Shown here one piece after another: positions 1 through 24,306 of a DNA stretch of 24,829 nucleotides (its first letter is position 1; each line of letters starts with the position of its first letter). The DNA is from a virus: positions 1 to 24,829 of the IMG/VR virus record IMGVR_UViG_3300032797_000084. One strand, 5' to 3'. Both the position numbers and the translations under genes were made by a program. Under the pieces are notes generated by a model. The model had not been told where the DNA came from, did not search any database, and saw nothing but the letters and a program-made list of their open reading frames with translations.

Positions 1-33
1 TGACTGGAGTTCAGACGTGTGCTCTTCCGATCT
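1..33. other. Illumina TruSeq adapter left on contig end
   Basis: Bases 1-33 match the Illumina TruSeq read-2 adapter, ending in GCTCTTCCGATCT. Read on the minus strand in the capsid frame, it gives the artefactual tail DRKSTRLNSS. This is not phage sequence. The true insert starts at about base 34, and the gene running into this edge is cut off by the assembly, not by biology. Confidence 0.97.
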
Positions 34-1241
34 TTATTGCTTTCAAGCAAAATTCTCTGCATCAAAGCAACGTGTCTATCAAGATAGTTGTAATTGGTAG
101 CTGCACCCTGGTCGAAATAGTGAGTAACCTGAGCTCCAAGAATTACGAGGTCAGAGAGAATTTCCCTGTCCACTTCAAGTGCTATTTCCTGACTCATTAA
201 CGCAGTCAGTTCGGCCTCAATATCTATGCCGTGATAGCTCTTAAAGTCCTGAGCTGATTCAGGGGTCCACACCGTTTTCAATTTACGGGTCTTTGCTTCA
301 ACCGTGTCTTTGTCGATAGTGATCTTCAGTTCTGATATGTCGGCATTGGCTTCAAGGTTGTACACGAACTCCATAACCGCTGTCCTGCTAACCTTATCGG
401 TCGCGCAAGTAGAAGTCATATTGATTGTGGCAACTCTTGTTGCTGGGTTGTATGCTACTGAGTTTACTGTCAAGGACGAAGCTGCACCACTCTCGATTGT
501 GAGAGCTGCGCCGGTCCACAGGTAAACCGTAACTGTTCTATTGAAGTCTGCTAGTGCTGTATTACCTTCCAGAATCCTTACCCTGAACGGTGTTGATGCT
601 GAGGGGGCTGAAGTCTGAAGCGGTAATGCTCTGTCTGTCGTTCCAGTTACGCCATCACCAACGTTAGTTGGGCCAGCTGAGTAGTAATCAGCAGCCGCAG
701 CGTCCGCTACCACACCGGCTTCTCTATTGCCAGCTGCGGTAACTATCATATGGTTATTGACGATCTGTTTTGCGTAGTATGGGTTGACCGGGAAGTTCCT
801 ATACGGTTCAGCTGCATTGTAAGGAGTCGTTCCGGTTAGACCAGCTGTCTGCAACAGGTTAAGCTGCGTTCCAGCTGCGGCCGTACCACGAGTCTGCTCG
901 AATTTATACCTCAGATAGAAGATAAATCCGACAGGCTGCATAAGGGGCTGAACACCTACGAGCTTGTTAGCTATAAGGTTCGGGAACACCCTGCGTATGA
1001 TCGGTAATGCGTACTTTATGAACTGACCAGCGGTGCCGATTGAGCTGCCAGAAGTTGTGCTTTCTGTCAACAGCCTATCTGCGAACTGGACTTCGTTCTC
1101 CATAAGTATAGCAGTTGCTACCTTGCTATAATCATCATTGATACCTTCAAGAAGCGGTTTGTATTTTTCGACATATTTCTTGCCTTCGACCATAAGTCTT
1201 TCGGCATTCTGCTTAATGAAATCTTTATACGTATCGGACAT
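34..1241 (-). CDS. 23: Major capsid protein, T4 gp23 family (C-terminus missing)
   Basis: Forms the hexameric capsid lattice. About 402 codons are present; T4 gp23 has 521, so roughly the last quarter is missing because the contig ends in adapter. The translation shows two stretches easily aligned with T4 gp23: RRVFPNLIANKLVGVQP (about residues 83-99; T4 has RRAIPNLIAFDICGVQP), and a later segment with EAKTRKLK, AQDFKSYHGID and EVDREI matching T4 EAKSRQLK, AQDLRAVHGMD and EINREV. The sequence DRLLTESTTSG places a prohead-protease site (LTE) after Glu60, equivalent to T4 FLTE at residue 65. The start ATG is preceded by AGGAGG nine bases upstream, overlapping the TAG stop of the scaffold gene. 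It is therefore co-transcribed with scaffold. Confidence 0.96.
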
Positions 1242-1254
1242 TTCTCAAATCCTC

Positions 1255-1968
1255 CTATTGGACCTTGCTATTATGATATGCTAAGCGAACTATTTCGCCT
1301 AAGAATCCATCTACTGTCTCTTTTTTATCCTCACCGGTAGGTAGAATCTTACCGATTTTTGATTCGTTCACTTGCTCTTTGAGAGGTGTCTTCGATACCT
1401 TCTCTAACTCAGCAACTTTGGTCTTCAATGTCGCATTTTCGTCTGTAAGTGTTTTAATAGATTTGTCTTTCAGTGCGATGCTTTCGTTGAGTTTTTTGAT
1501 TTCGGTTTCGTCTTTTATGATTTTGGTTTCTACTTTAGTTTCTACTTTGGCTTCAGAAATAGGCTTTACGTTTGCTTTCGTTTCTTTTTCAACTTGTTCT
1601 TTTACCAAGTTCTCAATCTCTTTCCACTTCGATTCCACAAAAAGTTTGGTCTTCTGTGAGAGTTCGGCTTTGTGAGCTTTGTAATCTTCCTCGATTAGCT
1701 TTTTAACGCCTGTTCGAGCTTCCTCAAAACGTTTCTTGAAGTCTTCCTTCGCTTCGTAGAGAGCCTTGTGGGATTTGGCGGCTTTGTCTTTTAAATCAGC
1801 AACCTTTACCCTAATTAACTCAACAGCCTCGTTCTCTTCTTTCTCACGAGCTTCGTTGAGTGTCTTAAGGTGAGCTTCCATAGCTTCCATTACACCCTCG
1901 GCAATCTGCTTAGCAGCGGAGTCTTCAATCTTCGCATCTTTAAGGATACCCAATAATTTTTCTTTCAT
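1255..1968 (-). CDS. 22: Capsid scaffold / prohead core protein, gp22-like
   Basis: A 237-residue, Lys/Glu-rich, almost entirely helical coiled-coil protein directly upstream of the major capsid gene and downstream of the protease, exactly the position of gp22 in T4. It should assemble the internal core on which the prohead shell forms and then be degraded by the protease. No sequence motif proves this; the assignment rests on composition (long heptad-like runs over residues 30-130 and 155-200) and gene order. The start ATG has a strong GGAGGG site eight bases upstream. The gene follows a terminator and a candidate promoter, so scaffold and capsid may be a separately boosted high-level unit. 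Confidence 0.85.
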   Translation of the reverse strand: MKEKLLGILKDAKIEDSAAKQIAEGVMEAMEAHLKTLNEAREKEENEAVELIRVKVADLKDKAAKSHKALYEAKEDFKKRFEEARTGVKKLIEEDYKAHKAELSQKTKLFVESKWKEIENLVKEQVEKETKANVKPISEAKVETKVETKIIKDETEIKKLNESIALKDKSIKTLTDENATLKTKVAELEKVSKTPLKEQVNESKIGKILPTGEDKKETVDGFLGEIVRLAYHNSKVQ

Positions 1969-2049
1969 CTAGTTCCCTCCTCACTGCCTACCTATTAATA
2001 CACAAAGTAAACCGATGACAATTTACCTTTTTATTGCTTATACACTATA

Positions 2050-2057
2050 TATTTAGT
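2050..2057 (-). promoter_or_regulatory. ACTAAATA element upstream of scaffold/capsid
   Basis: The minus strand reads ACTAAATA inside an 18-bp inverted repeat (ACACTA arms at 2042-2047 and 2054-2059). It lies 82 bases upstream of the scaffold start and downstream of the protease terminator. It is a candidate phage promoter for the scaffold and capsid genes, inferred because the same octamer recurs upstream of other minus-strand genes. Confidence 0.5.
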
Positions 2058-2087
2058 GTTTTTTTAAATCCAGGTTGGTTTTTAGCG

Positions 2088-2121
2088 TAAAAACACCGCT
2101 ATTTTTGTAAATAGCGGTGTC
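2088..2121 (-). terminator. Intrinsic terminator after prohead protease
   Basis: A perfect 12-bp inverted repeat (ACACCGCTATTT at 2093-2104, AAATAGCGGTGT at 2109-2120, loop of four) is followed on the minus strand by a run of five T (GTGTTTTTACG). It starts about 18 bases after the protease stop codon, so transcription of the long leftward operon is expected to end or be reduced here. Confidence 0.85.
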
Positions 2122-2137
2122 TGTTGGGGTTATGATA

Positions 2138-2743
2138 TTATTTCTTATTTCGTAGAAACTCGTCGACTATTTTGAATACTTCGTGCTTGAAATTAGCTGG
2201 TTTTGTGTCGTGACTAAATATGCGTTTTAACGTACTTTCTGATAATTGTAGGTATGCTCCGGGTGTTGACGGCTCAGCCACTACGTCCCACGTAATCAGC
2301 TGAAAATCGTCATTGACCACCTGGATCTCGTTTCCACTTTCGTCCATTTCTTTGCGAGTTGTCCCCAAGCCTCGGCTTGAGATTCCTATTTTAACGTTTG
2401 CGTCGACGAGTGATTCTACGATTTTTCCACAAGGTGTATTAAGTAGTTCAAGTTCTCCGTATATGTCGCTTTCGTTGCATTGAACTCCGGTTATAAGATG
2501 GCTTGCTTTTGCATATTCGATTGTAGCTGTCTGTGGATGGTCTAGTTGCCCTACCAGGGAACGGTTCTTTACAGCTTCTGCAAGCTTGGTGCATTCCCTA
2601 GCAAGAACCTCTTTGTTGTAAACTCTTCCGTTCTCGTTCTTTACGTTTGCTTTCTGAAATAGACCACGAAGCTTCTTTGGCTGGTTCTGTTCCTTTATGA
2701 CCTTATATTCAAAAATTACCTGCTCTAAGAGTAAATTGTTCAT
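2138..2743 (-). CDS. 21: Prohead core protease, T4 gp21 family
   Basis: Serine protease of the T4 gp21/herpesvirus-assemblin type. It cleaves scaffold, capsid and internal proteins after Glu in (L/I)-x-E sites during head maturation. The 201-residue product has the family layout: a strand-rich core starting KKLRGLFQKANVKN (24-37), the catalytic His in VGQLDHP (His69) and the catalytic Ser in GISSRGLG (Ser122/123). Length fits gp21 (212 in T4). Its N-terminus has LLE (residue 7) and IFE (residue 12), possible self-cleavage sites. The start overlaps the stop of the preceding gene by ATGA. It sits upstream of scaffold and capsid, as in T4. Confidence 0.94.
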   Translation of the reverse strand: MNNLLLEQVIFEYKVIKEQNQPKKLRGLFQKANVKNENGRVYNKEVLARECTKLAEAVKNRSLVGQLDHPQTATIEYAKASHLITGVQCNESDIYGELELLNTPCGKIVESLVDANVKIGISSRGLGTTRKEMDESGNEIQVVNDDFQLITWDVVAEPSTPGAYLQLSESTLKRIFSHDTKPANFKHEVFKIVDEFLRNKK

Positions 2744-3420
2744 ATCTTTTCTTCCTCATCCGCTTCGTCTGCGTATACTTCAAAAAATCTCTCCCAGTAT
2801 TCCGGGGAGGACATTTCTTTCTCTAATGACTTCTTGCTCTTTTCTACACGTTTCGCAATCTTGTATATATCTCTTATCCTGTTCTCTATCTGTCTTGTTG
2901 TCTGTTTAACCTGCTTTATTGCCGGTCTAATCTCTCCCGGATTAAGGTTTAGGTTAACGTAATCGTTCTCTATGTACTCTAAATCCTCAATACCGCTTAT
3001 CGGATCCAACTTCAGCAGAAGCCATCCGCCGGACCTTCCTTCTTGGAAGTAGTCCAGAACGAACGGAAAATCCTCTTTTATCCACTCTATAAAGAACTCT
3101 AACTGCTGTGGCAACTCCTCCCAAAAGTAATGGTCAAGTTGCTCGGTAACTCCAAGTTTCTCTGCCTTATCAAGAACTTCTTGCGGTATGTCTACACGGC
3201 CCATCTTTATATTGAACTCTACCGTATTCTTGCTATCCCGCGCGTGTCCGGCAGAAAACTCTTCTTCAAATATATAATTATACTGCTCTACTGCTTCCTT
3301 AGATAAGTCCAGAGCCCTCTTTAACTCTATGGCTTCTGGTGTCTTATAATACTCCGCTGTCCTGGTCTCCAAATCCTTAGTAGAGGCCGGTTTGAATATA
3401 TCATCCTGTATCTGCAACAC
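2740..3420 (-). CDS. Unknown protein with N-terminal DIFKPA motif
   Basis: A 226-residue, strongly acidic and helical protein that I do not recognise. The N-terminus reads QDDIFKPASTKDL followed by R-x-AEY. Nearly the same start occurs in the gene at 17153-17902, with 18 identical bases in the DNA. The remainder has Trp/Phe-rich segments (YFWEELPQQLEFFIEWI, about 123-139) and a lysine-rich helix near 185-205. It lies between the 1360-residue protein and the protease, where T4 keeps its small prohead-core genes 67 and 68, so a head-core role is possible but unproven. The stop overlaps the protease start by four bases, indicating translational coupling. Confidence 0.85.
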   Translation of the reverse strand: MLQIQDDIFKPASTKDLETRTAEYYKTPEAIELKRALDLSKEAVEQYNYIFEEEFSAGHARDSKNTVEFNIKMGRVDIPQEVLDKAEKLGVTEQLDHYFWEELPQQLEFFIEWIKEDFPFVLDYFQEGRSGGWLLLKLDPISGIEDLEYIENDYVNLNLNPGEIRPAIKQVKQTTRQIENRIRDIYKIAKRVEKSKKSLEKEMSSPEYWERFFEVYADEADEEEKI

Positions 3421-3422
3421 TT

Positions 3423-6400
3423 CTAGTCCTCGTTCACCTTTTTCGTAGGTTTCACTGTGAAAGGTTTAGCCTTCTTATGTAGAGCTGTTCCAGCTGCCTT
3501 TCTGCCAGGACCTTCCGTATAAGGCTTATCGTCTTCGGTTATCTTTCTTACAGGTTTCACTGTAAAAGGTTTAGCCTTATCTGGTAGAGCTGTTCCAGCT
3601 GCCTTTGCTCCGGGACCTTCTGTGTAAGGCTTATCGTCCTCTGACAATTCCTCTGTTTCTTCCTCAAACGGGTCTATCGCCGGGGAGTTCATCTCTCTGA
3701 TGAATTCCTCGTTGTTCTCATCCGTAACCCTGCCAGAACCACCGCCGGTGAAGTCTTGCAAATGCTTACAGCACTTCGGTTGGTCTTTGCTGAACTTCCA
3801 AGCAGGACACGTACAATAGGTAACACCGTCCTTACCCTTTACTATGTAATACTTTCTTTCCGGGTTAGACTTGCTACCATACGTTCCAAGAACATCGGCG
3901 TCCTTCGGTAAATAGGAAGCTTCTTCCACGTTAGCTTCTGTATTCTCGGTTTCCTCTACTTCCTCAGCATCCTTTACCATATAAGGGAAGTCCCTTCTCA
4001 TACACTCTAAACAAAGGTATTCTTGACCTTTGCTAGATATCGCTCCCCAAGTCTTAGGATCTTCGTAAAGGTCTGCCGTCTCCTTCTTACAAGACGAACA
4101 GTGTGGAGTGTTCTGTTCCTTCTCTACCTTTTCCTGCATCTGCTGAAGCTTCGCTCTTGCCTCTTCTATCTCTTCAACTGACTTCATTGATTTTCTCATA
4201 GCTTTCTTGAACGGCTTCTTCATACACTCGTTCTTATGTGATTTCATACCCTTACCTTTCATATGCCACGCGAGGGCCCAAGGGTTAGTTATATCTTTAT
4301 GCTTCTTCATTGCCTTTACGGTGCCTTCCCAGCCCGGAGGAGCTACTTCGTTCATTTTCTTATGGGCTCTGCACTCTCTAAGGAACTTCTTATCGGAGTT
4401 CATATCATTCCAAGCTTCCACCAGTTCCTCTTCTGTGTATTCCTCTTCTTCCTCACCTTCCTCGCTTTCCTCCGCACCTTCTTCCTCAAAAGCCTGGCCT
4501 TCTCCTGGCTTCGTATTGGCATCCTCGTCTCCATATCTCACTACTGGAGGAATAGCTTCGCCAGTTTCACCAACAGTTTCAATTTCTCCAACCGGAGGAT
4601 TAGTTGACATTTGCTCACCAGTGTCCGGAAGTTTACCGGAAGTCTGCGAACCACTATCAACTACTACGTCAACCTCGGCCCCACCAACTGCTATATCAAC
4701 TTCTGGGGCTATACCAGCTTCTGGAGCCGGAGCTATATCAGCTTCGGGGGGACCGACTTCGGTATCAATTGGAGCTATATCAGCTTCTGGAGCTACCGAT
4801 CCAACCGGCTCAACATCCGAAGGAGTCATATCATCGGTTTCAGCAGGAACTTCATCAGTTCCAACCTCTGTTCCAACAATTTCTTCTCCACCGACCTCGC
4901 CGGGTGTTTCCATCTCTTCATCGTCATCTGCAAGTGCTGGGCCACTTTCCTCTACTTCCGCACCTTCTTCACCCTTACCAGCTTTAGACATCTGTTGGAA
5001 CTTCTCTTTGCCGTATTTCTTTCTGCCTATCCAAGCAGCCAAAGCTTCGGCACCCTCTTTCAAGAATACCTGATAAGCTTCGTTCATTTCCTCATCATCC
5101 ATCTCCTCGTCATCTTCCTCTTTCTTCTCACCTTTGATTCCCTTAGATTTCAGAGATTTAACGAGCTTCTTGAAACCCATATACTTCTCGTCGAGCTGCT
5201 CCTGGCCTTCCTCTTCTTCCTCTTTCTTTTCCGTTATCTTTGTTCCGGCCGCAGGTTTCATAAGCTTCTTTTGTGTAGACGGGAAACTCTGTGTCTGCTC
5301 TTTTAATGTCTTAATTGCTCCGATAGCCGGGAACGTAGTCATCTTCTCACCGCTGTCTGATATCTCACCGGTAGACCCCTCAACGTTCTTCATCAACTTC
5401 TTTTGTATATCGGGGTTCTTTGACATCTTCTTTCCACTATCCGGAAGCTTCGTACCACCGGCATACTTCATTGTGCCTTTATTCGGTGTCTTTGACATCT
5501 TCTTTCCACCGTCCGGGAGCTTCGTGCCATCAACTACTTTCTGCGTTCCCTTCTCCGGATTAGTAGACATCTTTTCACCGCTCTTGTCTATAATACCCTC
5601 TGTTGAACCTTCAACGTTCTTCATCAGCTTCTTCTGAATGTTAGGTTTGTTGGACATCTTCGTACCGCTGTCAGCCAGTTCTGTTCCGCCGACGCTCTCT
5701 ATCTTACCAACAGCAGGATTAGTTGACATTTTAGCTTCGTCAAGTTCTTCCTCGGTTTCTTCTTCCTCGTCCTCTTCAGTTTCCTCTTTCTCATTAACCG
5801 TGTTAACTGAAGATTGGTCGGCATTACCCATACCGTCATCTTCCGTTACCGGCGCAAGCTCTTTATCTATATCAACTGGGGCTTCCTCACCACCAAGACC
5901 CTCTACGGCTTCACCGCAATAAGGACACTTGTAAGAGGGTGCTCCATCCGGCTCAACCGAAAAGTCCTTCTCACAATTAAAGCAAGTAAGCTTTTCCATT
6001 TCTGGTGCTTGGGGCTCACCACCAAAACCTTCCTCATCACCGTAGGTTATATCACCGTCCGGGGAAATAATAGCTTCCTCGGCAATTTCTTCTTCCCTGC
6101 CTCTTAGACCTTTCTTACGAGGCTTAAATATGGGCTCTTCTTCCTCTTCACCAGGAATTTCTTCCTCTCCACCGATTTCCGGCTCCATACCGACCTCTTC
6201 GCCGCCTGGAATTCCTTCCTCACCAGAAATGGTTTCTTTACCCATTTCTCCCGCCTCTTCCTCTTCTTCGGCTCTCTTGGATAGCTCGGTGTCAACAGGT
6301 TCAATACCCTCGACCTTGGCTGCCAATTCAATAGCTTCTTTTGCTATCTCGGCCAGCTCGTCCTTATCCCACCTATTCTCTTCCTTTGCTTTGTTAATGG

Positions 6401-7505
6401 TATCAACTGCGAAGTCAACTCTACGCTGAACTTCCTCTTCATCTGATACTTCTTTAATCTTGTTCAACAGCTTTTCAAGGATATCGACAAACTGTCTCAT
6501 AAATCCAAGCTTGTCTTCCTCTGACTTCCTATCAACGTCCGAAACGACCTTATCATCAAGTTCGTCTCTTTCCGGCTCTGTTGCTCTATCATCACCGATT
6601 TCAGTTTCAGTATTCCCACCTGGAGCTTCGTCTGTCTGTTCTTTAAGGATCTGGTCTGCGATTTTCTTGAATCCCTCGTTCTCAGATCTCAGCTTCATAA
6701 AGGTCTTAACAGCTTCGTTGATCTTGTCTTTCGTTGCTGATACGTTTGTCTTGGAAGCCTCAACCAGCCTTTCTTTGAACTTATCGGAGGTAAGGAAGAA
6801 TACTTCCTCATTCTCGGATATCCACTTCTGGACGTTCTCAAATATAGGCTTCATATCAACTATTTTTGCTGACTTCTTAGCTAAGTCCACTTTCCTAAGA
6901 AGTGAAGGCTCCTTTTCGTATTTCCTAACTTCATTGGATTTGCCTTCATTTAGAGAAACTTCAAAGTAAGTATCTTTAATAACGTCTTTGCCATAGTAGC
7001 TTTCCATAATATCGGAAAGATTTTTGGAAAGGTCTTTGATAGCCTGTTTCTTATTTTCTTTAACTAACTTTATCTTTCTGACAGCAACCTTATTCTCGCA
7101 AAGTGGAGGACGTTTGTCGAAAATAGTAGTCTTGTCACCGGACAACTCCCTACGGAGGACTTCAATAGCATCGTTAAACTTGCTCTTGGAATCGGCTTCT
7201 TTATTCTCGGAAAGCAGGTCAATAGCCTCGGACATTAATGATTGAAACTTAAGTCCAAAGGTTTCAGAATCTACAGACACCTCGTCTACAGAATGGATTT
7301 TGACCTTATCCTCATTCACTTCAAACTTCGCTGTTTTAAGGTCTTTGTCGACGAAGAATACAATATTCTTGTCGAAATCGGAACCAACAAGTCTGGTTGT
7401 TTTACCTTCAAAAATTGTTTGTATTGCTTTCCTGACCTTTTCTAAGGTCGGTTTCAAGAAGCTCTGCTCGAGCTGTACTAAGTCCTCGTATTTTAGGTTT
7501 TTCAT
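3423..7505 (-). CDS. 1360-residue acidic mosaic protein with SWIM and zinc-knuckle motifs
   Basis: I do not recognise a named family. Visible parts in order: a folded-looking lysine-rich N-terminal region (1-290); a very acidic Gly/Glu linker; a first zinc pair, CFNC and CPYCG, at about 505-533; six or so copies of a KMS-x-NP repeat (about 590-755); ALAAWIGRKKYGKEKF near 810; an acidic Ala/Pro/Val tract; PPGWEGTVKAMKKHKDI with NPWALAWHMKGKG near 1065-1090; a second zinc pair, CSSC and CLEC, near 1135-1168; a SWIM-type finger CTC...CKHL at about 1230-1247; and two 35-residue direct repeats at the C-terminus. The start has GGAGG eight bases upstream. Its place between portal and protease suggests an internal or core head protein. 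The IGRKKYGK and WEGTVKAMKKH peptides recur, from memory, in other uncultured phage proteins. Confidence 0.9.
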   Translation of the reverse strand: MKNLKYEDLVQLEQSFLKPTLEKVRKAIQTIFEGKTTRLVGSDFDKNIVFFVDKDLKTAKFEVNEDKVKIHSVDEVSVDSETFGLKFQSLMSEAIDLLSENKEADSKSKFNDAIEVLRRELSGDKTTIFDKRPPLCENKVAVRKIKLVKENKKQAIKDLSKNLSDIMESYYGKDVIKDTYFEVSLNEGKSNEVRKYEKEPSLLRKVDLAKKSAKIVDMKPIFENVQKWISENEEVFFLTSDKFKERLVEASKTNVSATKDKINEAVKTFMKLRSENEGFKKIADQILKEQTDEAPGGNTETEIGDDRATEPERDELDDKVVSDVDRKSEEDKLGFMRQFVDILEKLLNKIKEVSDEEEVQRRVDFAVDTINKAKEENRWDKDELAEIAKEAIELAAKVEGIEPVDTELSKRAEEEEEAGEMGKETISGEEGIPGGEEVGMEPEIGGEEEIPGEEEEEPIFKPRKKGLRGREEEIAEEAIISPDGDITYGDEEGFGGEPQAPEMEKLTCFNCEKDFSVEPDGAPSYKCPYCGEAVEGLGGEEAPVDIDKELAPVTEDDGMGNADQSSVNTVNEKEETEEDEEEETEEELDEAKMSTNPAVGKIESVGGTELADSGTKMSNKPNIQKKLMKNVEGSTEGIIDKSGEKMSTNPEKGTQKVVDGTKLPDGGKKMSKTPNKGTMKYAGGTKLPDSGKKMSKNPDIQKKLMKNVEGSTGEISDSGEKMTTFPAIGAIKTLKEQTQSFPSTQKKLMKPAAGTKITEKKEEEEEGQEQLDEKYMGFKKLVKSLKSKGIKGEKKEEDDEEMDDEEMNEAYQVFLKEGAEALAAWIGRKKYGKEKFQQMSKAGKGEEGAEVEESGPALADDDEEMETPGEVGGEEIVGTEVGTDEVPAETDDMTPSDVEPVGSVAPEADIAPIDTEVGPPEADIAPAPEAGIAPEVDIAVGGAEVDVVVDSGSQTSGKLPDTGEQMSTNPPVGEIETVGETGEAIPPVVRYGDEDANTKPGEGQAFEEEGAEESEEGEEEEEYTEEELVEAWNDMNSDKKFLRECRAHKKMNEVAPPGWEGTVKAMKKHKDITNPWALAWHMKGKGMKSHKNECMKKPFKKAMRKSMKSVEEIEEARAKLQQMQEKVEKEQNTPHCSSCKKETADLYEDPKTWGAISSKGQEYLCLECMRRDFPYMVKDAEEVEETENTEANVEEASYLPKDADVLGTYGSKSNPERKYYIVKGKDGVTYCTCPAWKFSKDQPKCCKHLQDFTGGGSGRVTDENNEEFIREMNSPAIDPFEEETEELSEDDKPYTEGPGAKAAGTALPDKAKPFTVKPVRKITEDDKPYTEGPGRKAAGTALHKKAKPFTVKPTKKVNED
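3432..3641 (-). repeat. Two 105-bp tandem repeats in the 1360-residue gene
   Basis: Two adjacent in-frame copies of exactly 35 codons encode EDDKPYTEGPG...KAAGTAL...KAKPFTVKP. The copies differ at only a few residues (for example GAKAAG against GRKAAG), so this is a fairly recent internal duplication at the extreme C-terminus. Confidence 0.93.
5250..5735 (-). repeat. KMS-x-NP peptide repeats in the 1360-residue gene
   Basis: Imperfect repeats of about 25-30 codons each carry K-M-(S/T)-x-x-P, often followed by IQKKLMKNVEGST and spaced by G-T-(K/E)-L-x-D-(S/G)-G. An outlying copy (EQMSTNPPVGEIETVG) lies nearer the C-terminus, around 4575-4615. The repeats look like serial duplications in an unstructured linker. 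Confidence 0.85.
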
Positions 7506-7518
7506 ATATCCTCCACCT

Positions 7519-9432
7519 CTACGTGATTAATTTCTCCTCTTTACCTTTGTTATTACCGTTCTCGATAAGACCTTTAAATTGTCCTTCGTATAATAGGTAA
7601 TCAAAGTGACTGCTACTCATAATATATTTAGTGATATGCTTTTTACGAAGTTTGCTTTCTCTCATTTCTTCCGGCCTTTCGGCAGGTTCCTCTTCTTCGC
7701 CTTCCTCAGGAGGAACTTCCTCTCCCGGCTTCGGCTCTTCTCCCGGCTTCGGTTCCTCACCTGGTTTAGCTTCCTCGCCTTCTTTACCCTTAGCGAATGA
7801 TGCGAACTCACCTTCTATTCCGCCAGTAGGGGCTCCCCCGCCGCCACCACCAGGAGCTTCTTCCGGAGCGCCGGCAGCTGGCATCTCTTGCATCCTCTGC
7901 TCTCTCATTTCTGCTATCTCATCCTCTTCCATACGAAGTATATTCTTTAATACATATTCGTCTGAAAGTAATTGCTGGCCGTCGATACTATTGATACCTT
8001 TCGCAACGTTCAACGCATTCAACCTAGCGTTAATAAGCTCAAGCTTCGTAAGTTCATCTATATTTGAAGGTATGGTCATAGTTACCTTTAATGACTTTAT
8101 ATCCTCGGCAGAATAACCTTTCAGATACAGCTGTATATAAGCAATTTTGTATAGCTGGGATACGATAGCCTTCTGTATCCTCATAATAGTCCTACCAAAA
8201 CGTTTATCCAATACAGATAGACCTGCTTTGGTCATATCTACGTTTGGAGAACCGTCCGGTGTTCCGGTAAGCCTACCAAGATAGGCAGGCGGTATCTTTA
8301 AGGAAGCCATAATCTTATCCCTAAAGAAGTTGATATCTGCTATCTGGTCAAGGCCAGTAGTCCACCCCGGAAGTGTTTCTATCCTTGTACCACGTTGTCC
8401 AGTTGTGCTTTCCCTTGTAGGTATATAGAAGTCCTCTTGCTGTGCGAGAGGTGATGCCATTTGGTCTATTTCACCCGATACTGGGTTGTAGAACTGCCTT
8501 TTTGCGTAGTCCTGCTTAATCTGGTTGATGAAGGTCTTAACTTCGGCAGGACCCATATTGCCTACGTCTATATAGAACACCCTGCGTTCAGGAGCCCTCG
8601 TTAATCGGTTAATAATGAGTGATTCTTCCATTATCTTAAGCTGTTTCCACGTCTTCCTAGCACCTTCAAGGATAGATAGTCCATATGGGGATAGCCTTGG
8701 GTCATTGGTCTTTAACGTAAAATGGCAGACCTGATAAGGCTCATATTCTATCTTTTGTAGGGTCTGCGGAACTCCTTGTGCGTCTAGGTTAGCTGTAGCA
8801 TCGGTAAGGGATTCTTGTAATCTAAATTCAAATCTTTTAAGTGTCCTATCTTCCTCAATACGATAGAAACCATCCAGAGGTATCGGTATGAGCTTTGCTA
8901 TACCGTCCTCTGATTCGTTCATAACTATTTCAAATGGAGAATCACCGAACTTGATTAGATCTCTGGATAATCCCCATACCTGGTCTTCTAACTGGAGGGT
9001 TTCGTCGAAAAGGTCTCTTATTTCCTCTGTAACCTTATCGTTTTCAGACTCTATCTTTATGGTCTTACCTTCTTCTATGCTCATAGAACAACATTCGTCG
9101 GCATATACGTCCAAAGAACCAGAAATCATAGCGTCTTGGTCCATAAGGTTGTATTCCTCATAGCGCCTACGCCTGTCTATGGACATCTTGGCTATGTTCT
9201 TTTCATACCAAGCCCACGCCCAACCTAACTGTGAGTAATACCAAAGAGAGTCTTTGGTAGCAACTTTCAGGTTAGAATCAAGGGAATCCTGTGTCTGGAT
9301 CTCCTGCCTTTTGAAGTAGTTCTTTATCTTGGTAAAGACAGTTTGTTTCTTGAAGAACTTCTCTTCTTGAGGCTTCTGAATCTTATCCACGAAATCCGCA
9401 TTATCTTTAAAAATCAAGTCTTCTGTAGCCAT
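7519..9432 (-). CDS. 20: Portal vertex protein, T4 gp20 family
   Basis: Forms the dodecameric ring through which DNA enters the head. The 637-residue product has recognisable gp20 features: RRRRYEEYNLMDQDAMISGSL (about 87-107, split here for length only), SRDLIKFGDSPFEI, RAPERRVFYIDVGNM (near 278-292), the ED-x-YIPTRE and ETLPG segments, and DKIMASLKIPPAYLG. T4 gp20 has 524 residues; the excess is a low-complexity tail with a Gly run near 530 and KPGEEP repeats near 550-585, followed by a basic terminal helix. GGGAGGA lies 13 bases upstream of the ATG, at the end of the preceding gene. It lies downstream of terminase with one gene between. Confidence 0.95.
   Translation of the reverse strand: MATEDLIFKDNADFVDKIQKPQEEKFFKKQTVFTKIKNYFKRQEIQTQDSLDSNLKVATKDSLWYYSQLGWAWAWYEKNIAKMSIDRRRRYEEYNLMDQDAMISGSLDVYADECCSMSIEEGKTIKIESENDKVTEEIRDLFDETLQLEDQVWGLSRDLIKFGDSPFEIVMNESEDGIAKLIPIPLDGFYRIEEDRTLKRFEFRLQESLTDATANLDAQGVPQTLQKIEYEPYQVCHFTLKTNDPRLSPYGLSILEGARKTWKQLKIMEESLIINRLTRAPERRVFYIDVGNMGPAEVKTFINQIKQDYAKRQFYNPVSGEIDQMASPLAQQEDFYIPTRESTTGQRGTRIETLPGWTTGLDQIADINFFRDKIMASLKIPPAYLGRLTGTPDGSPNVDMTKAGLSVLDKRFGRTIMRIQKAIVSQLYKIAYIQLYLKGYSAEDIKSLKVTMTIPSNIDELTKLELINARLNALNVAKGINSIDGQQLLSDEYVLKNILRMEEDEIAEMREQRMQEMPAAGAPEEAPGGGGGGAPTGGIEGEFASFAKGKEGEEAKPGEEPKPGEEPKPGEEVPPEEGEEEEPAERPEEMRESKLRKKHITKYIMSSSHFDYLLYEGQFKGLIENGNNKGKEEKLIT
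7625..7632 (-). promoter_or_regulatory. ACTAAATA element inside the portal 3' end
   Basis: The octamer lies in the portal reading frame (codons for ITKYIM) and four bases before an in-frame ATG at 7618-7620, which would give a 33-residue C-terminal fragment. It is about 120 bases upstream of the 1360-residue gene start and could drive that gene. Function is inferred only from recurrence of the motif. Confidence 0.35.
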
Positions 9433-9434
9433 TT

Positions 9435-10070
9435 TTATACCGGTCCTCCCCCAGGTTTTTTAGCATTATGCTCATTCCACCACTTTGATATATTCTCTAA
9501 CGCGCCAGAAAATCCGCCATCGTCATCCCATATCATCTTTATAATAGCATTACCTTGGTCCGGCGTGAGAGTATGACGATGCACTATCTCATCCACCTTA
9601 GCCATTAATATTTGACACTTATCTCTATCATTCTTATTCCTATACTTAGGGCTTGTTCCTATATCTATCGCATTTAGCATAATCTCTTTAATAGCATTGG
9701 ATGCCTTTATAGGATCCACATTAGATTCCGGAGGACAAGCCTCAATTGCGATTGCCGCTACTTTATCCCCCACGTTCATTTCTTTGAGGTCTGGTGGGAG
9801 AAGATTTGCCTTTAGCATATTTACTTTCGGTTGTATGTTCTTGGCATTATGTACCAGCTTATTATAATTTGTTCCCACGGTCCTAAGAAGGTCGTCTTTA
9901 GAAACTTTCTTATACTTATTGAAACGTGAGTCGATATCCCATAATGGCATTATCTTACTAACAACGTGCGACATCATAGTACTCGCAATAGGTTCGGTAG
10001 GAACCGTAGCCAACGGAGTAGTCTGTTCAAATATCTTGTCTATCTTATATAGAGTCTCATTCAGGGTCAT
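9435..10070 (-). CDS. Unknown protein between terminase and portal, with candidate capsid-targeting N-terminus
   Basis: A 211-residue protein (213 if the first of two close ATGs, at 10076, is used). I do not recognise it. I prefer the second ATG because it puts ACTAAATA seven bases upstream, close to the eight bases seen at 23049 and 21609. The N-terminus, TLYKIDKIFE, matches the signature of those two genes and ends in I-F-E, a legal T4-type protease site. The body is mixed helical, with HRHTLTPDQGNAIIKMIWDDDGG near 180-200 (quoted in part: TPDQGNAI, IWDDDGG), and ends in KKPGGGPV. Gene position between terminase and portal suggests a packaging, head or neck role; in T4 the genes at this place are tail sheath and tube, which it does not resemble. 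Confidence 0.82.
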   Translation of the reverse strand: MTLNETLYKIDKIFEQTTPLATVPTEPIASTMMSHVVSKIMPLWDIDSRFNKYKKVSKDDLLRTVGTNYNKLVHNAKNIQPKVNMLKANLLPPDLKEMNVGDKVAAIAIEACPPESNVDPIKASNAIKEIMLNAIDIGTSPKYRNKNDRDKCQILMAKVDEIVHRHTLTPDQGNAIIKMIWDDDGGFSGALENISKWWNEHNAKKPGGGPV

Positions 10071-10077
10071 ATACATA

Positions 10078-10085
10078 TATTTAGT
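10078..10085 (-). promoter_or_regulatory. ACTAAATA element upstream of the 211-residue gene
   Basis: The octamer is one base before the first and seven bases before the second in-frame ATG of the gene at 9435. It lies at the very end of the terminase gene's downstream gap. It is a candidate promoter or translation-linked signal. Confidence 0.45.
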
Positions 10086-10086
10086 A

Positions 10087-11820
10087 TTATCCTAGGAGCC
10101 ACCTTATATCCTCTGTGGTTTCTACTCCCTCTTGATGTTTAACCTTAACAGTATAGGGATCCTCTTTCAAAGCCCATCGAATAATGTCATATTCATTGAA
10201 CCCCTTTAATGGTTGCAACTTAATTTTAGGAACGGCATACACACCTAAGTTTTGGAAGCTTATGAAAGCTGTATTCTTGTCGGCAGAATTACCGGTTATA
10301 ACTCCACGTAGTCCCTTTTGTAACACCCCAAAGTCCTCTTTAAGCTCTACAAACTGGTTAACGTCTAACAGCGATTCCTCACGCAGTTTACCATATAGAC
10401 TTGCCATAGCTGGATTAGTCATAACGGCAGATTGAATTCCTAAGAACGTCAATCCCAATGATATAAGCAAGTCGTCGGTAGACCCTTTCTGCTTGGATAT
10501 CTTACCAGTTTCTACGTCTGCCACGAAGGTCTGGAGCTCGTTTATAGTCCTTATGCTGAACACCTTTAACAGTTCTTTTGTGAATATCTGCTCTATTGCT
10601 TGTATGATAAAAGGACGAGTCCTTACAGTGGTATCCCACCCCGGAGATCCTGTCCTTCTGAAGTAGACGTTGGGATACCTTTGGTTAAGGTATAACTCAT
10701 TCATTACTGCTAGCCCCATATTGTTTATCTCTAATACTATAAATGCTCCACCGTATTCCTTACCGACATCGTGAAGATATTTAGCGTAGGTTATGGTATC
10801 TACTTTTCCACAATATTCGGCTACCTGCATCCCAGTTGCGACGTTAATTACGTGAAATGCAGAATTAGACTTTCCACTTCCTTCTTTCCCAGCATCGGCA
10901 CCGATGACATAGAAAGTCTCCGGATCCGGCTTCTCCCATATCCACAACTGTCCTTGATATCGTTGCTCTATAGGATCTTTCGTAAGCTTGTGTTCCCCAT
11001 TTCCCTCTATGTCAAGATACCTATTGATAATTTCTCTTGGGATAAAGGTATTGGTGCCTCCTAAGAAGTCACCTAATACTTCTTGTGCGAACTTTAGCTC
11101 TCCTAAGTCCTTTCTCTGCGCTTCGGCCCAGCCGGGTAGGCAATATTCAGGGTGTTCTGTGTATACAAGGTCAACTGGATTAAAATTGTTCTTTTTAAGC
11201 TTAGCTTCGTTCCACTTATCATAGAACCATTGGCCGGTTCCGAAGGTTCCGTTTACCGTCGAGAGAACTATGCCGTTACCGCCTGTGGATAGGATAGGAA
11301 ATGCGGAAGTCCATAGGGATTCTATGTTCTGTATGAAAGCCGCTTCGTCTATGACAAGCAAGGAGGCCGCAAAAGACCTGGCTGCGTATCTCGGTGATGG
11401 TATAGATTGTATCCTTGAATCGTTGTCAAACACCATAGTAGACTTATTATCCTGTTCAAGTTTTCCTCCTAACCATTGAGGTAGTTTATCGTGTGCTGTC
11501 TTTATGTGTTTTAAAAATTCCTTTGATTCTCTGGCTCCTATTGAGATAATCATTATCTCTTTAGCTCTATTGAACATAGCCATCCATAAGACATATACCG
11601 ATACAAGCGTAGATAATCCCATCTGCCTGGGTTTCTTTATGATATTGAACCTGTGGTTTTGGAAATCATTGAATATTCGTTCTTGGTAGTTGTATAGGTC
11701 GAACTTGATGAACCCTCGTTTTGGGTGTAGGATAGTAACGTATGTACGGCAGAAATATGCGAAACTCTGCCGACACTTCTTTAATTCTTCGTTTATAAAT
11801 GCATCTGTTGGGCGAGCCAT
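10087..11820 (-). CDS. 17: Terminase large subunit, T4 gp17-like
   Basis: ATP-driven DNA-packaging motor and headful nuclease. In 577 residues the ATPase has Walker A KPRQMGLST (63-71), Walker B LLVIDEA (154-160) and coupling motif LSTVNGT (186-192). The RNase H-like nuclease has its three acidic residues in IGADAG (Asp309), VLEINN (Glu364) and STDDLL (Asp449/450). Length is close to T4 gp17 (610). No splicing or frameshift is seen. The start is weakly served by AGGT about seven bases upstream, 14 bases after the preceding stop. No small terminase subunit can be named with confidence; the helical 170-residue protein at 15186 is one possibility. Confidence 0.96.
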   Translation of the reverse strand: MARPTDAFINEELKKCRQSFAYFCRTYVTILHPKRGFIKFDLYNYQERIFNDFQNHRFNIIKKPRQMGLSTLVSVYVLWMAMFNRAKEIMIISIGARESKEFLKHIKTAHDKLPQWLGGKLEQDNKSTMVFDNDSRIQSIPSPRYAARSFAASLLVIDEAAFIQNIESLWTSAFPILSTGGNGIVLSTVNGTFGTGQWFYDKWNEAKLKKNNFNPVDLVYTEHPEYCLPGWAEAQRKDLGELKFAQEVLGDFLGGTNTFIPREIINRYLDIEGNGEHKLTKDPIEQRYQGQLWIWEKPDPETFYVIGADAGKEGSGKSNSAFHVINVATGMQVAEYCGKVDTITYAKYLHDVGKEYGGAFIVLEINNMGLAVMNELYLNQRYPNVYFRRTGSPGWDTTVRTRPFIIQAIEQIFTKELLKVFSIRTINELQTFVADVETGKISKQKGSTDDLLISLGLTFLGIQSAVMTNPAMASLYGKLREESLLDVNQFVELKEDFGVLQKGLRGVITGNSADKNTAFISFQNLGVYAVPKIKLQPLKGFNEYDIIRWALKEDPYTVKVKHQEGVETTEDIRWLLG

Positions 11821-21252: not shown

Positions 21253-21609
21253 TTATTTAGTTTTATGGACTAAAGCTGCTCCAAAATCTCCGCTCGAATC
21301 AAGCAAATTATACAGTTCAGTATAGTTGTCCGGAGTATAGGTCTTTCCCTTGTAGTTAACTTGTGGAAAGTGGGTAAGCAAAGTGAATAAAGCCATATTA
21401 ATATTCCTTGACCGAACCTTTCCGATATACTCCTTCGTTGCTACTGGAAACCATATCTCAAATGTGTTTTTTGGTCTTGTAATTTCCTGATTAGTAGGTT
21501 TCTTAACCTGATGGACGGCCTTATCCTTAGAGAAATCCTTCCACATAGATTCTATATCGTCCATCTGTCGCTCAAAAAGACAATTAACCTTCTGAATCAG
21601 CTTTTCCAT
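21253..21609 (-). CDS. Unknown 118-residue protein with MEKLIQKVNCLFE start
   Basis: Small protein, not recognised. The first 13 residues align without gaps to those of the adjacent CCA enzyme (M, L4, hydrophobic 8, D/N 9, L11, F12, E13 shared), although the rest is unrelated. Residues 45-118 look like one small folded domain (NTFEIWFPVATKEYIGKVRS; MALFTLLTHFPQVNYKGKTY). No Shine-Dalgarno sequence is visible upstream; instead ACTAAATA ends eight bases before the ATG. The N-terminal peptide ends in L-F-E, which fits cleavage by the prohead protease, so a virion-internal protein is a reasonable guess. Confidence 0.82.
   Translation of the reverse strand: MEKLIQKVNCLFERQMDDIESMWKDFSKDKAVHQVKKPTNQEITRPKNTFEIWFPVATKEYIGKVRSRNINMALFTLLTHFPQVNYKGKTYTPDNYTELYNLLDSSGDFGAALVHKTK
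21254..21261 (-). promoter_or_regulatory. ACTAAATA element upstream of the membrane protein gene
   Basis: The octamer overlaps the last codons and stop of the 118-residue gene (ACT AAA TAA) and lies 18 bases before the ATG at 21236, which also has an AGAGGA ribosome site. Confidence 0.4.
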
Positions 21610-21617
21610 ACACTTAG

Positions 21618-21625
21618 TATTTAGT
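21618..21625 (-). promoter_or_regulatory. ACTAAATA element upstream of the 118-residue gene
   Basis: The octamer starts at the stop codon of the CCA enzyme gene and ends eight bases before the ATG at 21609. No Shine-Dalgarno sequence is present between them. If it is a -10 type promoter, the mRNA would start close to or at the start codon. Confidence 0.5.
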
Positions 21626-23049
21626 TAAGGGAGGCTCTTTATATATTCCTTTATTTTCTCTATATCTTCTACATTTATATTGTTATTGATTATCCAATCC
21701 ACCGTAGCCTTTATATACTTCCCAACAGCAGGGCCTTCCGGTATTCCCTTTAACTGCATAACGAGCCTGCCGTTGACTATTTTCTTAATGTTATCTACGG
21801 CCTGCTTACCACTGAACTTCTTTTTAATCTGTTCTACTTTATCCTCAATCTGTCGCCATTCGTCCGGGTCGAATAGGTGCTTTCTGGCAGCGGTATCTGC
21901 GTAGGCAGTCTGTTTTAGGACTTCCCATTTATCGTGGTTAATAAGGTCAAGTATCTTCTTGTCCGACATATCTAAAAAGTCGTGGATCTTCATATGATGC
22001 AGACAGGCAAAGATAAGGGAATCCCTAGTTTCGTTGTCCATTTTGAGCCTTTCTGCTATCTGCTCTATGATATGGACACCTTTCTCTGCGTGGTCTATAT
22101 AGGTCATCTTCTCCCCCTCTTTCTTGAAGGAGGCGGGTTTTCCTATGTCGTGTAAAAGAATAGCAAGGTTGATTATTGGGTTTGCTATCTTGTTTTGATG
22201 CAGGGCAGCTATAACGTGGTCATATACAGTTCTACCTTCTGGGTGCTTGTCCGGACTATGCTCAAACCTCTCCATCTCAATAACTTCTGGTATTATGTAT
22301 TGGAGTAGACCTGTATCTTTAAGGACTTGGAGAGCTCCTGCAAACTTTGGTCCCTCCTGCTCGGCCATCTTAACGATTTCTTTCATTATGCGTTCAGGAG
22401 CTATTTTGGTTATCTTTGGTGCGTGGGTCTTTAAGGCGGAATAAGTATCCGGGTGAATATCATATCCCATTCTTGAGCTGAAACGAACCGCACGTAGCAT
22501 ACGCAGGTAATCTTCTAAAAATCTCTTATTTGGATCCCCTACCGTGCGTAATACCTTGTTCTGTATATCTCTAACACCGTCAAAATAGTCGTATATATTA
22601 CCTTCACTATCTATACCCATTGCGTTGATGGTGAAGTCCCTACGTGCTACGTCTTGCTTGAAGCTGACTCCAACTTTAACTGTTTCCGGCCTTCGTCCGT
22701 CAAGATACTCTCCGTCTGCTCTGAACTGAGCAACTTCAAAGGTGTATTGCTTATACTCAACACCGATAATTCCAAAACTCTTACCTTCCCCAACTGAGAA
22801 CGTATCAAACATCTTCTCTATCTGTTCTATTGGAACGTCGGTGGCAATATCAATATCGTCCGGTTCTTTCTCACCGGTAATGAGATCCCTTACAGCTCCA
22901 CCTACGATATATGCCTTTCCAACCTCGTCCAGCTTGTTCAATACTTCGACAGCGGCCTGAAGCATTGGCATAGATTTAACATACCTATACCAATCCTCTT
23001 TGGTAATAGATTCAAATAACATATCTATCCTTTTGGATAATCTATTCAT
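21625..23049 (-). CDS. cca: tRNA nucleotidyltransferase (CCA-adding enzyme) with HD domain
   Basis: Adds or repairs the 3' CCA end of tRNA from CTP and ATP. The 474-residue product is a bacterial class II enzyme: GGAVRD (50-55), metal-binding D-I-D (65-67), ARRDFTINAMG (135-145), DYFDGVRDI (154-162), and the nucleotide-recognition region with EDYLRMLRAVRF (179-190). An HD phosphohydrolase domain follows (HDIGKP, 300-305; DHAEKGVHI, 319-327). Related bacterial poly(A) polymerases share the core, but the context of a tRNA array favours CCA. There is an N-terminal extension of some 25 residues, starting MNRLSKRIDMLFE, which is not part of the enzyme fold and resembles that of the next gene. First gene of the leftward operon, divergent from the tRNA operon; no Shine-Dalgarno, ACTAAATA eight bases upstream. 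Confidence 0.94.
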   Translation of the reverse strand: MNRLSKRIDMLFESITKEDWYRYVKSMPMLQAAVEVLNKLDEVGKAYIVGGAVRDLITGEKEPDDIDIATDVPIEQIEKMFDTFSVGEGKSFGIIGVEYKQYTFEVAQFRADGEYLDGRRPETVKVGVSFKQDVARRDFTINAMGIDSEGNIYDYFDGVRDIQNKVLRTVGDPNKRFLEDYLRMLRAVRFSSRMGYDIHPDTYSALKTHAPKITKIAPERIMKEIVKMAEQEGPKFAGALQVLKDTGLLQYIIPEVIEMERFEHSPDKHPEGRTVYDHVIAALHQNKIANPIINLAILLHDIGKPASFKKEGEKMTYIDHAEKGVHIIEQIAERLKMDNETRDSLIFACLHHMKIHDFLDMSDKKILDLINHDKWEVLKQTAYADTAARKHLFDPDEWRQIEDKVEQIKKKFSGKQAVDNIKKIVNGRLVMQLKGIPEGPAVGKYIKATVDWIINNNINVEDIEKIKEYIKSLP

Positions 23050-23065: not shown

Positions 23066-23122
23066 CACTAATATTAATAGAAAAAAGTGTATTATTTTGC
23101 GAACTTTCGTATTAATATAGTA

Positions 23123-23251
23123 GGTGGAGGACTCACTCCAGGGCATAGGACTCGATACGAGCGTGGTTGCTTGTGTGAGTTTATAACCGATGCAGTAATA
23201 GTGATGGGAGCGAATAACCTGACCAGTCTTGAAGGCTTCTTCGCCTCCACC
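23123..23251. other. Structured intergenic element of unknown type
   Basis: A 129-base segment, more GC-rich than the flanking AT-rich DNA, closed by a perfect 8-bp inverted repeat (GGTGGAGG at 23123-23130, CCTCCACC at 23244-23251). Inside are further pairings: GCAT/ATGC, a CTCG-ATA-CGAG hairpin, GGTT/AACC, and an alternative 3' stem GGAGCGAA with TTCGCCTCC that competes with the closing helix. On the plus strand it is followed by TTTTT. It could be a small RNA on either strand or a leader of the CCA operon. It does not match tmRNA, SRP RNA or tRNA. The gene-free gap 23050-23363 otherwise holds only promoters. Confidence 0.5.
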
Positions 23252-23280
23252 ATTTTTAATGTCCCGTTTTTGGTAAAGTG

Positions 23281-23296: not shown

Positions 23297-23325
23297 TTGA
23301 CAAAATAGCATTCTTGTGATACACT
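23297..23325 (+). promoter_or_regulatory. Sigma70-type promoter for the tRNA/RNase P RNA operon
   Basis: Consensus -35 TTGACA (23297-23302), a 17-base spacer and -10 TACACT (23320-23325), preceded by TGA, giving an extended -10. Transcription would start near 23332. It is expected to be read by the unmodified host polymerase, so early in infection. Confidence 0.8.
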
Positions 23326-23363
23326 TGGTACTACATAGATAAGTAGAAGTAAAAGGAGTAGTT

Positions 23364-23501
23364 ATGTCTCTATCACTAAGACAACATATGTGGTTTACGG
23401 AACGATTCGGCAAACAGCCGACATCGTTATCCGTCGGCCTCTGTCCGGTGACAGGAGAGACTGCTCCAGCGTATATAAATAAGACCGATTCAATTAGCTA
23501 A
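23364..23501 (+). CDS. Small ORF at head of the tRNA operon (45 residues)
   Basis: ATG with AAAGGAG six bases upstream, 45 codons starting MSLSLRQHMWFTERFGKQ and ending NKTDSIS, TAA stop. It is the first possible gene after a strong promoter. Not recognised. The same DNA can form two good hairpins (GCCGAC/GTCGGC at about 23410-23432; CTGTC-CGGT-GACAG just after), so this may instead be, or also be, a structured leader RNA. The ribosome site argues for translation; the short length and the hairpins argue for caution. Confidence 0.5.
   Translation: MSLSLRQHMWFTERFGKQPTSLSVGLCPVTGETAPAYINKTDSIS
23474..23481 (+). promoter_or_regulatory. TATAAATA, identical to the T4 late-promoter core
   Basis: TATAAATA on the plus strand, 86 bases before the first tRNA, inside the small ORF. 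It matches the T4 late -10 consensus, but in AT-rich DNA one such match can arise by chance, and the other putative late elements here read ACTAAATA. Confidence 0.2.
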
Positions 23502-23560
23502 GCAGAAACTCCGAAGTAAAGACGGACAGACTGCGAGGCAAAATGAAGTCGGTCTTTTTG
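23481..23560 (+). terminator. Long-armed stem-loop before the tRNA array (attenuator candidate)
   Basis: An 8-bp perfect stem (AAGACCGA at 23481-23488, TCGGTCTT at 23549-23556) is followed by further T (TTTG), which looks like a terminator except that the loop is 60 bases. Inner pairings GCAG/CTGC and TCCG/CGGA compact the loop. It overlaps the end of the small ORF, so translation through the 5' arm could prevent its folding, as in an attenuator. The tRNA genes start 11 bases later. Confidence 0.45.
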
Positions 23561-23566
23561 TGTTTA

Positions 23567-23640
23567 GGGGCTGTGGTGTAGTGGTAGCACATCAGGTTTT
23601 CAGCCTGGAGGTATGGGATCGTTCCCCTTCAGCCCTACCA
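23567..23640 (+). tRNA. tRNA-Glu(TTC)
   Basis: Acceptor GGGGCTG pairs with CAGCCCT (G1-U72 wobble), D stem GTGT/GCAC, anticodon stem TCAGG/CCTGG with loop TTTTCAG giving TTC. The T arm is slightly irregular (one mismatch, loop ATCGTTC). CCA is encoded. Confidence 0.9.
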
Positions 23641-23641
23641 A

Positions 23642-23717
23642 AGCCCCTTCGTCTAACTGAAGAGGATATCTGGTTCTCAGCCAGATGATGCGAGTTTAAT
23701 TCTCGTAGGGGCTACCA
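23642..23717 (+). tRNA. tRNA-Glu(CTC)
   Basis: Perfect acceptor AGCCCCT/AGGGGCT, anticodon stem TCTGG/CCAGA with loop TTCTCAG giving CTC, T stem CGAG/CTCG. CCA encoded. It follows tRNA-Glu(TTC) by one base, so the phage covers both Glu codons. Confidence 0.92.
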
Positions 23718-23735: not shown

Positions 23736-23814
23736 GGTTCGTTAGCATAGCCCAGCCGAATGCGCTGGATTGTCAATCCAGAGATCACGGGAGCGAAGCC
23801 CGTACGGACCGCCA
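23736..23814 (+). tRNA. tRNA-Asp(GTC)
   Basis: Acceptor GGTTCGT/ACGGACC, anticodon stem CTGGA/TCCAG with loop TTGTCAA giving GTC, T stem CGGG/CCCG, discriminator G and encoded CCA. Two bases separate it from the RNase P RNA. Confidence 0.95.
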
Positions 23815-23816
23815 GA

Positions 23817-24143
23817 TTTAGTGGACAGGTAATCGATGTTTACTTTAGTGAACAAATGTTTACTTTAGTTTACATAGGAAACTCCGGACTCCATAGAGCA
23901 GTGTAGTAAGGCTAATAACCTTACCCACGTTTACGTGAGGATTAGAGCAACAGAGACGAGCCTTATAGACCGTGCCCTACAGCTATGCTAGCAATAGACG
24001 GGAAGACGATATAAGGAGTGAAACGGGCAATCTCTACACGGAGCAATCCCACATAGGATACTGGCTGGCTCGGTCAATAGTATCGGGTAGGGAGCTTAGA
24101 TAGATGATTACCAAATACAGAATCCGGGTTATAGTTCACTAAA
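23817..24143 (+). ncRNA. rnpB: RNase P RNA, compact bacterial type, phage-encoded
   Basis: Catalytic RNA that cuts the 5' leader from pre-tRNA. Conserved blocks seen: GGAAACTCCGGACTCC (23877-23892), GCAACAGAGAC (23947-23957), ACGGAGCAATCCCACATAGG (24038-24057) and ACAGAATCCGGGTTAT (24117-24132), each lined up with E. coli M1 RNA. Helices: P1 TTTAGTGGAC (23817-23826) with GTTCACTAAA (24134-24143); P2 GGTAATC (23828-23834) with GATTACC (24106-24112); P3 ATGT...ACAT (23836-23875); P4 23880-23888 with 24123-24130, keeping the bulged U; P6 GAGC (23896-23899) with GCTC (24068-24071); P8 GTAAGG/CCTTAC; P9 CACG/CGTG; P11 CCTTATA (23961-23967) with TATAAGG (24010-24016); P15 GATACT/AGTATC (24057-24084). 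P13, P14 and P18 seem absent, giving about 327 nt against 377 in E. coli. No protein subunit gene is in the window; the host protein may be used. Confidence 0.95.
23836..23875 (+). repeat. Direct repeat forming P3 of the RNase P RNA
   Basis: The 14-mer ATGTTTACTTTAGT occurs twice within 40 bases, ending in TTTACAT. The outer ATGT/ACAT ends can pair, and GTTTAC-TTTA-GTGAAC makes an inner hairpin, so P3 appears to have been built or altered by a short duplication. Confidence 0.7.
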
Positions 24144-24145
24144 AA

Positions 24146-24234
24146 GGAAGGTAGGCAGATATGGTTGGCTGCGCTGGTTTGCTAAACCAGTTAGGGTAAA
24201 ACCTATGTGAGTTCAAATCTCGCACCTTCCGCCA
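24146..24234 (+). tRNA. tRNA-Ser(GCT)
   Basis: Perfect acceptor GGAAGGT/ACCTTCC, anticodon stem CTGGT/ACCAG with loop TTGCTAA giving GCT, long class II variable arm as expected for Ser, discriminator G, CCA encoded. It begins two bases after the RNase P RNA. Confidence 0.95.
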
Positions 24235-24235
24235 A

Positions 24236-24306
24236 TCCCCGGTAGTTTAAGGGAAAACGTCAGACGTATTCTGAAGACGTGAGTTTAAACCTCACCTGGG
24301 GAACCA
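24236..24306 (+). tRNA. Atypical tRNA, GTA (Tyr)-like anticodon loop
   Basis: Acceptor TCCCCGG/CTGGGGA, D stem GTTT/AAAC, T stem GTGAG/CTCAC and CCA are all good, but the anticodon arm is two bases short: stem TCAGA/TCTGA with a five-base loop CGTAT, or four pairs with loop ACGTATT. The central triplet is GTA (Tyr), but U33 is missing and the T loop reads TTTAAAC rather than TTCRA. It could be a variant, a damaged copy or a mis-assembled base. A CTG (Gln) reading needs a stem that invades the T stem. Confidence 0.7.

Follow-up and report, generated by a model that had tools for sequence, protein, structure and literature searches.

A class A RNase P RNA encoded inside the tRNA array of a T4-like phage, with further copies in other viral tRNA arrays

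RESULTS

An RNase P RNA lies between two tRNA genes of a phage contig

The window, i.e. the whole stretch of DNA analysed here, corresponds to a 24829-base virus record of IMG/VR, on which head and packaging genes and a CCA-adding enzyme are encoded on the minus strand and a tRNA array with an RNase P RNA (P RNA) inside it on the plus strand. The features are as follows:

3–11820, minus strand: head and packaging genes, namely major capsid, prohead protease, T4-type portal and terminase large subunit (PHROGs, Pfam S77, Portal_T4)
21625–23049, minus strand: CCA-adding enzyme with PolyA_pol head, RNA-binding and HD domains (Pfam PF01743, 3.5e-32)
23297–23325, plus strand: sigma70-like promoter with an extended -10 (TTGACA-17-TACACT); same elements in the sister L065, kept in the relative G001
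23338–23560, plus strand: conserved leader RNA with a terminator-like stem at its end, without an Rfam match
23567–23717, plus strand: two tRNA-Glu (UUC, CUC), start of the array
23736–23814, plus strand: tRNA-Asp(GUC) with encoded CCA, 2 nt upstream of helix P1 of the P RNA
23817–24143, plus strand: phage RNase P RNA, class A, without P13/P14/P18 and with long P3 and P12 (RF00010; covariation in three relatives)
24146–24234, plus strand: tRNA-Ser(GCU) with encoded CCA, beginning 2 nt past P1
24236–24829, plus strand: remaining array, i.e. a tRNA found by Rfam only at 24236, then Ser, Trp, Met, Met, Cys and Lys, reaching the contig end

Around the P RNA, ten tRNAs were predicted by ARAGORN and one more by Rfam, extending from 23567 towards the contig end and all encoding their CCA. 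Since the CCA of tRNA-Asp ends at 23814 and tRNA-Ser starts at 24146, a spacer of only 2 nt is left on each side of the P RNA. The tRNA at 24236–24306, matched by Rfam and missed by ARAGORN, apparently has C rather than U at position 33 of its anticodon loop, with GUA as a possible anticodon. The array is likely driven by the promoter listed above, and the leader of ~200 nt between this promoter and the first tRNA is kept in three related phages; it contains an invariant stem-loop (CUCUGUCC..GUGACAGGAGA), its terminator-like stem is long-range, and it is possibly an attenuator of the array, its role being otherwise unassigned. A strong fold (-44.7 kcal/mol, closed by GGUGGAGG/CCUCCACC) without any Rfam match was also predicted at 23117–23260, and this element is apparently missing from the sister phage at the same place. 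A first-pass annotation made from the sequence alone had described the surroundings of the RNA as a tRNA array, a CCA enzyme and T4-like head genes, and all three were recovered by ARAGORN/Rfam, Pfam and PHROGs.

The RNA is a full-length member of the bacterial class A family

Infernal cmscan against Rfam 15 matched 23817–24147 on the plus strand to RF00010, the bacterial class A RNase P RNA, with 147.8 bits (E 5.6e-46; gathering cut-off 100 bits), and the match is not truncated, as model positions 1–367 of 367 are covered. Other clan members of RF00010 scored lower at the same place, and apart from RF00010 only tRNA families were returned by the Rfam scan of the window. P1 is formed by 23817–23826 paired with 24134–24143, so the RNA end given by the first-pass annotation (24143) is the end of P1, and the Rfam match runs 4 nt beyond it into tRNA-Ser.

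The P4 pseudoknot helix comprises eight pairs and a bulged U and is 100% kept in the three-way alignment described below; the P6 pseudoknot (GAGC/GCUU) is present, and helices P1–P3, P5, P7–P9, P11, P12 and P15–P17 were found as well, with P3 and P12 being long. P16 is formed by GAUAC/GUAUC and P17 shows covariation, and P6 together with P16/P17 indicates class A rather than class B. CGGGUAGGGAG sits where the model has GGGU, i.e. the GGU of the P15 loop, which pairs with the tRNA 3′ CCA, is kept. Among the 114 strongly conserved consensus positions, 90 are identical in the window RNA and 24 differ, and one P4 pair is C-G where the consensus has G-C, a deviation that is compensated. The window RNA resembles the E. 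coli M1 RNA (rnpB, class A, RF00010) in its conserved blocks, its P4/P6 pseudoknots and its P15–P17 with GGU, whereas it departs from bacterial class A RNAs by the swapped P4 pair, by the absence of P13, P14 and P18 (two parts of the model, 43 and 24 positions long, have no counterpart in the RNA), and by being phage-encoded within a tRNA array, only 2 nt from the tRNA on either side, and without a linked gene for the protein subunit RnpA. The loss of the three helices is not defining, because they are missing in known P RNAs too, namely the reduced ones of CPR bacteria (Lui et al. 2021, PMC8172020); those, in contrast, are cellular and many lack the UGG motif, the equivalent of which the phage RNA keeps. 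By sequence and structure, it is near certain that 23817–24143 belongs to the known RNase P RNA family. The initial claim of a bacterial RNase P RNA with conserved blocks, helices and both pseudoknots is therefore upheld by the full-length match, and the lack of a significant covariance-model match, named there as a refutation, did not materialize.

Compensatory changes point to selection on the RNA

The window RNA was aligned with those of two relatives, L002 and L018, and the structure, with both pseudoknots, was drawn on the window sequence. Pairing was retained in 97.4% of the cells of this three-way alignment, versus 30–35% in slid controls, and changes on both sides occurred at 14 pairs, versus a shuffle mean of 5.9, with none of 500 shuffles reaching 14; they include C-G/G-C exchanges in P4 and P11 and three P8 pairs. 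The compensatory changes and the kept pairing indicate that selection acts on the P RNA. Because the structure comes from the window sequence itself, the share of paired cells is to some extent a given, whereas the double changes are unaffected by this; as only three sequences were compared, these changes stand for few independent lineages. P12, long in the window RNA, is apparently absent from both relatives (L002:2590-2867 and L018:5399-5667), an absence with few precedents among known RNase P RNAs, those of CPR bacteria included (PMC8172020).

Syntenic relatives establish the phage origin of the locus

Contig G001, which comes from another metagenome and carries L002, is collinear with the window genes, with the RNA in the corresponding position and with proteins that mostly share 60–90% amino acid identity with those of the window (lowest about 32%). 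In G014, which carries L018, the array order is Glu-Asp-RNA-Ser-Ser-Trp-Met-Cys-Lys, as in the window. The window and both relatives are fragments of 22–31 kb, with the relatives derived from different metagenomes, and searches for further relatives via the CCA enzyme and the portal returned G001 only.

Bacterial stretches do occur in phage collections, and several of our other matches (e.g. L195 and MaAM05) look bacterial, so host contamination or a chimeric contig was considered. Array order and RNA are common to three independent contigs, however, the synteny with G001 spans 24 kb, and the RNA is flanked by phage tRNAs with a 2-nt spacer on either side; the syntenic relatives rule such an origin out for practical purposes, and with it the join near 23815 that the first-pass annotation had named as a possible refutation. 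Its claim that the RNA is phage-encoded is supported by the covariance-model match, the covariation, the phage flanks, the syntenic sister phage and the further in-array cases given below. Separately, L069 (MW495066.1 107323-123478), filed as Microcystis phage MaAM05, has a bacterial RNase P RNA surrounded by bacterial-type genes (fliM, glyS, mtgA) and looks like bacterial DNA.

P RNAs recur in the tRNA arrays of other viral records

Viral contigs were scanned by sequence pattern and then by Rfam, and RF00010 was matched above its cut-off in 18 of 18 records, in 15 of them inside tRNA arrays. By our own grouping, the 15 in-array IMG/VR records fall into about nine sequence groups:

Window, L002 and L018
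L010, L013 and L020, including a 463 kb record; the last two are possibly one and the same phage
L027, L037 and L053; 369 kb, with T4 portal and terminase
Single members: L003, L007, L012, L016, L040 (363 kb) and L055

Terminase matches, some of them weak, were obtained in 8 of the 18 records tested, the 463, 369 and 363 kb ones among them, while the viral status of L007 and several others rests on the IMG/VR label and the tRNA arrays alone. Of the 14 in-array loci with a direct measurement, 12 have a tRNA ≤7 nt away on at least one side (exceptions: L016 and L012), as do 12–13 of 15 when L013 is counted as its near-copy L020. By comparison, none of 119 cellular P RNA loci, mostly betaproteobacterial and picked by a related pattern, had a same-strand tRNA within 300 nt or two tRNAs within about 1.5 kb. 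The search of other phage contigs that had been proposed at the outset thus yielded recurrent in-array copies, and went beyond the first-pass annotation in that the case is not unique, the P RNA is nearly flush with tRNAs, and RnpA was not found.

Other searches added nothing to this set. Lineage-specific DNA patterns gave no new phage copies, and two candidates, L191 and L192, proved not to be RNase P; a class B RNase P RNA pattern had three matches in viral contigs, none being RNase P and none near tRNAs. Blastn against an annotated phage collection gave weak matches only, to records that were bacterial-looking or at prophage edges, and other weak blastn matches were unannotated faecal contigs without a tRNA array where checked.

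In a tree, the phage P RNAs were scattered in several places among cellular copies with low support. As the tree also contained several duplicate rows, including window-clade copies labelled ‘other’, and its cellular sample was biased by the search pattern, repeated acquisition of P RNA by phages is only suggested. Four small MAG contigs (L090, L083, L102 and L117) carry divergent RNase P RNAs outside the betaproteobacterial grouping; L090 groups weakly with the phage copies and could be viral itself.

Phage tRNA arrays gain and lose genes, and the P RNAs of several groups are mixed with cellular ones, if with weak support, as they would be had recombination at tRNA loci brought in a host P RNA gene together with tRNA genes, and were this gene now drifting as a passenger. 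We give this little credence, since in-array P RNAs occur in about nine groups, the window clade shows 97% pairing and 14 double changes, and the sampled cellular P RNA genes are not close to tRNAs. The near-flush position of the P RNA in many phages could likewise mean that it is mainly a cis element, processing its own polycistron with little activity in trans. In characterised bacteria, however, RNase P RNA acts with its protein in trans, as a multiple-turnover enzyme, and no cis-only feature was found in the P RNA locus; we hold this reading to be very improbable. Given in-array P RNAs in a T4-like virus and in about eight further groups of viral contigs, the viruses concerned seem to carry a tRNA-maturing ribozyme of their own.

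No RnpA was detected in the virus records

RnpA (PF00825) was found in 0 of 28 virus records, including those of 463, 369, 363 and 268 kb, by a search that was positive in 10 of 14 controls and would miss a very divergent phage protein subunit. With only fragments available for the window clade, an RnpA gene could be located in the missing parts of these genomes. A 118-aa neighbour (21253–21609), an RnpA candidate by size, gave only a poor structural model (pLDDT 52) and no Pfam or PHROG match, and is therefore not claimed as RnpA. We infer that the subunit is supplied by the host.

With no phage RnpA found, any use of RnpA would amount to competition for that of the host, and the peripheral helices of the P RNA are reduced; both would suit a structured decoy that binds host RnpA or pre-tRNAs and keeps them sequestered, thereby damping tRNA maturation in the host, with catalysis dispensable. 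Such a role is unlikely, as the catalytic P4 core with its bulged U, P6 and the CCA-binding GGU are kept, P4 shows a compensatory change, and the RNA lies inside a phage tRNA array beside a CCA enzyme.

DISCUSSION

We consider it probable that the window encodes a functional class A P RNA of the phage's own, which is transcribed with the array, is bound by host RnpA, matures phage tRNAs and is released by tRNA processing. Transcription, catalysis, RnpA borrowing, self-release and a benefit under limiting host tRNA processing are all inferred. The P RNA would be transcribed within the tRNA polycistron, fold into the P4/P6 pseudoknotted core, bind host RnpA and trim the 5′ leaders of the closely packed, CCA-bearing phage tRNAs. 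With tRNA-Asp and tRNA-Ser each only 2 nt away, the P RNA would owe its own ends to tRNA processing, i.e. the 5′ end from trimming of tRNA-Asp after its CCA and the 3′ end from cleavage 5′ of tRNA-Ser by the RNase P of either host or phage. The phage may thereby keep maturing tRNAs during infection if the RNase P of the host is saturated or loses its RNA to degradation; the benefit put forward in the first-pass annotation, processing of phage tRNAs under limiting host enzyme, is plausible as a hypothesis. The loss of P13/P14/P18 together with the 24 differing positions of 114 could weaken the activity. More speculatively, and in our judgement doubtfully, jumbo and T4-like phages of several lineages may have independently assembled a tRNA-maturation module of tRNA array, in-array P RNA and CCA enzyme, in which the P RNA cuts the adjoining tRNA to free its own 3′ end and needs no bacterial RnpA, acting by itself or with a phage protein not yet recognised.

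RNase P RNA is a ribozyme found in nearly all cells, and T4 tRNA precursors are cleaved by the RNase P of the host. The RNase P processing of T4 dimeric precursors is discussed in PMC11143913. Large tRNA sets and phage CCA-adding enzymes, as in the window, are likewise found in the arrays of T4 and huge phages (Al-Shayeb et al. 2020, PMC7162821; RNase P goes unmentioned in the main text), and only tRNAs and tmRNA were reported for the megaphages of Lui et al. 2021 (PMC8172020). No report of a phage-encoded RNase P RNA was found in the open literature, subscription papers and preprints being outside the scope of our search. To our knowledge and in that literature, P RNAs that phages encode within their tRNA arrays, with no RnpA detectable, are undescribed, and other reports may exist.

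The divergent natural P RNAs described here, with two relatives lacking P12 and a swapped P4 pair, offer material for structure-function work. P RNAs within the tRNA arrays of several viral lineages hint that certain phages govern the maturation of tRNAs as well as their supply, which bears on why phages carry tRNAs at all, including independence from host shut-off or from tRNA-directed defence.
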